Assembly: GCF_000007925.1 (NCBI RefSeq)
Contig: NC_005042.1
Coordinates: 372,001 to 436,000 of the forward strand
Source: Prochlorococcus marinus subsp. marinus str. CCMP1375
GTDB lineage: Bacteria > Cyanobacteriota > Cyanobacteriia > PCC-6307 > Cyanobiaceae
Direction of reading: 5' to 3'
Length of the DNA stretch: 64,000 nt
Positions 25,774 to 26,303 of this stretch are shown piece by piece. The stretch's first letter is position 1. Each line of letters starts with the position of its first letter. The notes under the pieces were generated by a model. That model made no database searches. It was not told the origin of the DNA and was given only the letters and a program-made list of their open reading frames with translations. A program made the position numbers and the translations under genes.

Positions 25774-25971
25774 TGAATTGATTTCTTGCTAATTTGCAGA
25801 TCATAAGACTTTTTTAACTAAAATTTTGGAAAGTAGTATTTAATTATAAATTTTCGAATTGTAATCTTGCCGTACTGTCGTTCCTACTTCAAATTATTAT
25901 CTTGCATTTAAGCTAGCACTTAATCCAGCCAGATATGCTTTTTACGTTAATTGTTTAGGAAGACATTGATC

Positions 25972-26002
25972 AAAAAAAGCCTCCTTAAAAGAGGCTTTTT
26001 TT
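25972..26002 (-). terminator. Bidirectional rho-independent terminator after the DUF4278 gene
   Basis: AAAAAAAGCCTC-CTTAAAA-GAGGCTTTTTTT: a GC-containing stem flanked by an A-run and a T-run, so it can work in both directions. On the minus strand it lies about 34 bases after the DUF4278 stop. Confidence 0.85.
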
Positions 26003-26035
26003 AGTTTTTCAGATTTATCAGATTTAATTTTCCAG

Positions 26036-26203
26036 CTATATCTGATAAGGGATACCACGATATGTTAGTTGAGCATGATCAGTTGAAGCTTTTTTCTTTC
26101 TGTTTGAATAGACATTGCGTCTATAAGTTAATTCAACGTACTGCTTTTTAGCAGCTTCTTTGTGTTGAACGTAGTTTGATCCTCTATAAACAAGGTTTGT
26201 CAT
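26036..26203 (-). CDS. DUF4278 microprotein behind a candidate glutamine riboswitch
   Basis: A 55-residue ORF (ATG at 26203, stop at 26036) with three degenerate repeats of the DUF4278 signature: LVYRGSNY near the start, LTYRRNVY in the middle and LTYRGIPYQ at the end. It is basic between the repeats (HKEAAKKQY, SNRKKKAS) and soluble. AGAGGA lies eight bases before the ATG. DUF4278 small proteins include, from memory, the cyanobacterial PII-interacting regulator PirA/CfrA, which controls arginine synthesis and carbon flow. Together with the upstream leader, a role in nitrogen signalling is a reasonable inference, not shown here. It is followed by a strong terminator, so it is monocistronic. 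Confidence 0.85.
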   Translation of the reverse strand: MTNLVYRGSNYVQHKEAAKKQYVELTYRRNVYSNRKKKASTDHAQLTYRGIPYQI

Positions 26204-26223
26204 TTGCAGTGTCCTCTAATTTG

Positions 26224-26280
26224 TAAGGTCCCCGTTCCGTGGCCTTATTGGGTCTGCGCCCTGAAGTATCAGGGTGAACG
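26224..26280 (-). ncRNA. Candidate Downstream-peptide (glutamine) riboswitch
   Basis: Read on the minus strand, P1 is CGUUC (26280-26276) with GAACG (26237-26233). It encloses a perfect hairpin CCCUGA-UACU-UCAGGG (26274-26259), the segment CGCAGACCC (26258-26250) and UAAGG (26247-26243). UAAGG can pair with CCUUA (26228-26224) beyond P1, giving an H-type pseudoknot just before the AGAGGA ribosome-binding site. This geometry, and the CGUUCACCC plus GGAACG elements, match what I remember of the glnA/Downstream-peptide class that binds L-glutamine and occurs in Prochlorococcus and Synechococcus upstream of short ORFs, exactly this context. The switching direction cannot be read from sequence. 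Confidence 0.75.
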
Positions 26281-26281
26281 T

Positions 26282-26303
26282 TTTTGTAGCAATCGCTACA
26301 AAA
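26282..26303 (-). promoter_or_regulatory. Perfect hairpin abutting the riboswitch 5' side
   Basis: TTTTGTAGC-GATT-GCTACAAAA on the minus strand, a perfect 9-base-pair stem with a 4-base loop, ends one base before the aptamer P1. It may stabilise the 5' end of the leader or stack on the aptamer. Whether it is transcribed is unknown. Confidence 0.5.

Follow-up and report, generated by a model that had tools for sequence, protein, structure and literature searches.

A glutamine-II riboswitch lies, near certainly, at 26223-26283 on the minus strand of the window, the 64-kb stretch C1:372001-436000 of a single-contig Prochlorococcus genome of 1,751,080 bases. The account that best fits the locus, and that is very probably correct, places this riboswitch in the 5' leader of a monocistronic DUF4278 gene that would be repressed by NtcA, activated by glutamine and serve as a nitrogen-excess effector. 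The locus adds one more member to a known class. It is a real but ordinary find, because the class with its DUF4278 genes, its multiple copies in marine picocyanobacteria and its activation by glutamine have all been published. What is added here is a comparative observation, namely a GTA-N8-TAC site directly before the aptamer. The interest of the locus is that it would give this genome a direct RNA sensor of glutamine on small proteins that are suspected regulators of nitrogen assimilation.

Aptamer and controlled gene

An Rfam scan of the whole 64-kb window returns one match at the gathering level, to RF01704 Glutamine-II at 26223-26283 on the minus strand (60.6 bits against a cut-off of 33, E 3.6e-12). 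The family was earlier named Downstream-peptide RNA, the class to which the initial annotation had assigned this RNA. The P1 hairpin, the P2 hairpin and the PK pairing CGUUC/GAACG are all present in the sequence and in the Rfam alignment. Within the linker CGCAGACCC, the alignment identifies CGC as the counterpart of the strand which the crystal structure shows lining the glutamine site (PMC6698751). Selective binding of L-glutamine is published for the class (PMC6698751, PMC6316151), and family membership suggests that this RNA binds it too. Weak Rfam matches to leaders and small RNAs at about 25970-26070 are all far under their cut-offs and reflect the downstream terminator.

Each element listed in the initial annotation is found on the minus strand: CGTTC, CCCTGA/TCAGGG, CGCAGACCC, TAAGG, GAACG, CCTTA, AGAGGA and the 55-aa ORF. 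Its pairings and topology were also right, but two helix labels were swapped: its 'P1' (CGUUC/GAACG) is the PK helix and its 'pseudoknot' (UAAGG/CCUUA) is P2. The perfect hairpin CCCUGA/UCAGGG, which it left unlabelled, is properly P1 in the Rfam model and in PMC6698751. The features of the locus, in the order of transcription, are as follows.

26286-26299, minus strand: GTAGCGATTGCTAC, a GTA-N8-TAC palindrome; probable NtcA operator, also a potential 5' transcript hairpin (sequence; conservation in relatives)
26223-26283, minus strand: glutamine-II riboswitch aptamer, RF01704 (covariance-model score and Rfam alignment)
26276-26280, minus strand: PK helix 5' strand CGUUC (DNA CGTTC), pairs with GAACG at 26233-26237 (Rfam alignment; nomenclature of PMC6698751)
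26259-26274, minus strand: P1 hairpin CCCUGA-UACU-UCAGGG, arms 26274-26269 and 26264-26259 (sequence, Rfam alignment, folding)
26250-26258, minus strand: linking strand CGCAGACCC (Rfam alignment; PMC6698751)
26243-26247, minus strand: P2 5' strand UAAGG, pairs with CCUUA at 26224-26228 (Rfam alignment)
26233-26237, minus strand: PK helix 3' strand GAACG (sequence and Rfam alignment)
26224-26228, minus strand: P2 3' strand CCUUA (sequence and Rfam alignment)
26212-26217, minus strand: Shine-Dalgarno-like AGAGGA, 8 nt before the ATG; its GG is predicted to pair with the linker when ligand-free
26036-26203, minus strand: controlled gene for a 55-aa DUF4278 protein, ATG at 26203 (PF14105)
25972-26002, minus strand: terminator-like 12-bp hairpin with a T run (scan entry on the plus strand; the palindrome and T run also read GAGGCTTTTTTT on the minus strand)

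The ATG of the 55-aa ORF lies 20 nt downstream of the aptamer. Residues 3-53 of its product match the Pfam profile PF14105 (43.3 bits against a cut-off of 25.3), in accord with the DUF4278 gene of the initial annotation. The hairpin at 25972-26002 is the probable end of a monocistronic DUF4278 transcript.

Proposed release of the ribosome site

The authors of the crystal structure propose that glutamine stabilizes the PK helix and thereby exposes a ribosome site that would otherwise be occluded (PMC6698751), and a glutamine-II copy from Prochlorococcus activates expression (PMC6316151). At the present locus, L-glutamine would stabilize the CGUUC/GAACG pseudoknot, free the AGAGGA ribosome site and allow the small protein to be made. 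The 55-aa protein would then act as the nitrogen-excess effector and may be related to the N-terminal part of the glutamine synthetase inactivating factor IF17.

One strand that may occlude the ribosome site is the linker. In the ligand-free minimum-energy fold of the 55-aa gene leader, P1 and P2 are kept and GCAG/CC of the linker pairs with CUGC/GG across the Shine-Dalgarno region. The two G residues of the Shine-Dalgarno sequence are predicted to be unpaired with a probability of 0.02-0.03 in the free ensemble, rising to 0.52-0.91 when the bound fold is imposed, that is, with P1 and P2 formed and the PK strands and linker unavailable. Because a nested folding model cannot represent a pseudoknot, the bound state is set by constraint, and the exposure is what would follow from binding rather than proof that it occurs.

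Comparison across loci gives a mixed picture. Among the regions compared over 124 loci, it is the linker that pairs most with the Shine-Dalgarno stretch (2.96 nt vs 1.72 in shuffles). The linker-Shine-Dalgarno duplex energy in 79 non-redundant loci shows a modest excess over shuffled Shine-Dalgarno sequences (-5.03 vs -4.42 kcal/mol, sd 0.20), and of 200 permutations of linkers among loci, 1 reaches the observed mean. It is mainly in the 55-aa subfamily that the excess is seen. Compensatory change between linker and Shine-Dalgarno sequence was not found in 46 variant-linker loci, in a test that delimits the linker and P2 by fixed-length windows: a locus's own linker beats the consensus linker in 12 of these loci and is worse in 33. 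Since these loci speak against compensatory evolution, linker sequestration is not claimed for the class, and the slight excess over shuffles does not rescue it as a general mechanism. It is retained as a weaker proposal for the 55-aa leader copy only, in which, without ligand, the linker CGCAGACC would pair with GGACACUGC across the Shine-Dalgarno region until glutamine drew that linker into the binding site.

The chance that the switch works by some other route is only slightly below even. Candidate routes include pairing of the P2 3' strand CCUU with GAGG, pairing of the PK 5' strand CGUUC with a GGAAC-like Shine-Dalgarno sequence, or an action on RNA stability or transcription. The linker model is without covariation support, and pairing of the PK 5' strand with the Shine-Dalgarno stretch is about twice that of shuffles (0.41 vs 0.21 nt, 124 loci). 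CCUU is complementary to GAGG in the 55-aa gene leader, but P2 3' strand pairing with the Shine-Dalgarno stretch has no excess over shuffles (0.53 vs 0.52), and this pairing is rejected. A terminator scan of the coding strand from aptamer to ATG finds no terminator-like site, which also counts against another route.

The upstream NtcA-type site

The palindrome GTAGCGATTGCTAC at 26286-26299 fits GTA-N8-TAC, the NtcA consensus, and is separated by 5 nt from the CGTTC of the aptamer. Across the whole window the pattern is not enriched over chance (9 vs 5.7 expected), so the weight of the site lies in its position and conservation. The site was sought within 40 nt upstream of 132 oriented copies from genomes of the taxonomic family, this copy included, and GTA-N8-TAC precedes the aptamer in 128 of them, with a gap to CGTTC of 3-10 nt (mode 5). 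Control windows of 40 nt further upstream at the same loci contain it in 6 of 1320 cases; the copy counts take related copies as separate, without phylogenetic correction. The search predetermines GTA and TAC in the 127 distinct copies that have the site, and the interior between them shows a strong preference for GTAGCAACNGCTAC. In 93 of these 127 copies a hexamer resembling TATAAT lies upstream, with its end 6-7 nt from GTA; the copy at 26286-26299 has a weak -10 box, AAAATG, at the usual position.

For yfr6, the transcription start is placed some 20 nt ahead of the Downstream-peptide motif (PMC2864571). A start at this distance would mean that the operator spans roughly +1 to +14, the position expected for repression. 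NtcA binding at 26286-26299 is suggested by the match to the consensus.

The same geometry allows a different reading, in which GTAGC-N4-GCTAC is a hairpin at the 5' end of the transcript, acting in RNA stability or aptamer folding, and not an NtcA operator. The palindrome coincides with or closely follows the inferred transcription start, so it would be part of the RNA, and it folds in the window as a 6-bp hairpin. Moreover, one locus, L066, departs from the exact pattern and has GCAGC...GCTGC, in which both partners of a pair have changed. An RNA stem would allow other pairs, however, whereas 128 of 132 copies keep GTA...TAC without a single substitution, and the inner pair 5-10 is a C/A non-pair in 12 of 127. 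The NtcA consensus match and the published nitrogen repression of such genes likewise suit a protein site. A hairpin without an operator is therefore an unlikely explanation, and a protein site is favored because GTA and TAC are conserved by letter.

With a protein site, NtcA and 2-oxoglutarate would occupy the operator under nitrogen starvation and block transcription; when nitrogen is sufficient, NtcA would leave and transcription would start just upstream of the aptamer. The conserved site 3-10 nt before the aptamer and the TATAAT-like box join promoter, operator and aptamer into one cassette that probably serves as an AND gate for nitrogen sufficiency. That an NtcA-type operator and the aptamer are joined so consistently suggests that these genes read 2-oxoglutarate and glutamine together. 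A broader generalization is offered tentatively, as one that may well not hold in full: that promoter, NtcA operator at the transcription start and aptamer make up a compact, almost invariant cassette of ~95 nt, spread before small DUF4278 genes and a few others as a two-metabolite AND gate (low 2-oxoglutarate, high glutamine), and that in the 55-aa subfamily the glutamine-contacting linker is also the anti-Shine-Dalgarno strand.

Other copies and known systems

The initial annotation described a sensor on one microprotein, but two further copies occur in the genome, one at full score and one below threshold. The second aptamer (C1:923944-924002, 74.6 bits) precedes a 33-aa DUF4278 ORF of the Yfr6 type (L001). 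Its cassette, consisting of GTAGCAACAGCTAC, a 5-nt gap and the aptamer, matches the arrangement at the 55-aa gene. These are the only two DUF4278 genes in the genome, each behind a strong glutamine-II aptamer.

The third, divergent glutamine-II-like aptamer (C1:1418933-1418984; L003 1501-1552, minus strand) scores 32.2 bits, just under the cut-off of 33. A GTA-N8-TAC site lies 10 nt upstream of it and GGAG precedes an ATG, which opens an ORF of only 7 codons (MLRTLSP); no DUF4278 gene follows the aptamer. Another open frame nearby has a KRLHxAQL motif that recurs further down. This copy is possibly a decayed or unusual target.

In the taxonomic family, the aptamer occurs in 92 of 151 sampled genomes, often in several copies each; of 132 copies examined, 127 are followed by an ORF that carries a YRG/YRR-type DUF4278 motif. 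Two loci (L104 and L127) have the aptamer and the usual upstream GTA-N8-TAC before a different controlled gene, which encodes a non-DUF4278 protein of ~105 aa in which a hydrophobic stretch (AGFLGAF..SL.VQL) occurs and ATLW motifs recur. At three others (L120, L126 and L128), the aptamer precedes a 68-aa protein with the N-terminus MNALQLLKERELR and a DUF4278-like YRG only near the C-terminus.

The Downstream-peptide motif was described by Weinberg et al. before short cyanobacterial ORFs (PMC2864571). A review by the group that carried out the experimental work on type 2 glutamine riboswitches reports glutamine binding, association with DUF4278, restriction to marine picocyanobacteria and several copies per genome (PMC6316151). 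The setting before short ORFs of marine picocyanobacteria, as the initial annotation had it, is thus published (PMC2864571, PMC6316151). The present locus shares with the glutamine-II class (RF01704) its sequence, both hairpins, the pseudoknot, the conserved linker, a place before a short DUF4278 ORF, whose 55 aa fall within the 17-100 aa set for the class, and a marine picocyanobacterial host. Nothing essential differs: the linker is CGCAGACCC here and most commonly CGCAGUUCGAC, and the loop is CACGGAACGGGG here and CAUGGAACGGGG in the class. Membership in the Glutamine-I (glnA) family is rejected and has next to no chance of being correct, for although the two aptamers have binding-site sequence in common and RF01739 gives a weak match, that match reaches 20.7 bits against a cut-off of 35 (vs 60.6 for RF01704) and the pseudoknot topology is of the glutamine-II type; of the two models paired in the initial annotation, Downstream-peptide thus holds and glnA does not.

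A closely similar system is PMM1846 of Prochlorococcus MED4, a type 2 glutamine riboswitch for which both riboswitch and NtcA motif are present (PMC6316151). The two have in common the RNA class, DUF4278 and an NtcA motif in the promoter region; PMM1846 belongs to another strain, and the likeness is one of class, domain and motif. The yfr6 or 33-aa Downstream-peptide genes, to which L001 of this genome belongs by type, share the leader architecture but have a shorter protein and a different Shine-Dalgarno context. The logic proposed for the present locus, NtcA repression combined with glutamine activation of a small DUF4278-containing protein, is also that of gifB of Synechocystis, which encodes IF17 (PMC6316151, PMC7760959). 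The gifB aptamer, however, is glutamine-I, whereas that of the present locus is glutamine-II, and DUF4278 forms only the N-terminal part of IF17 but nearly the whole of the 55-aa protein.
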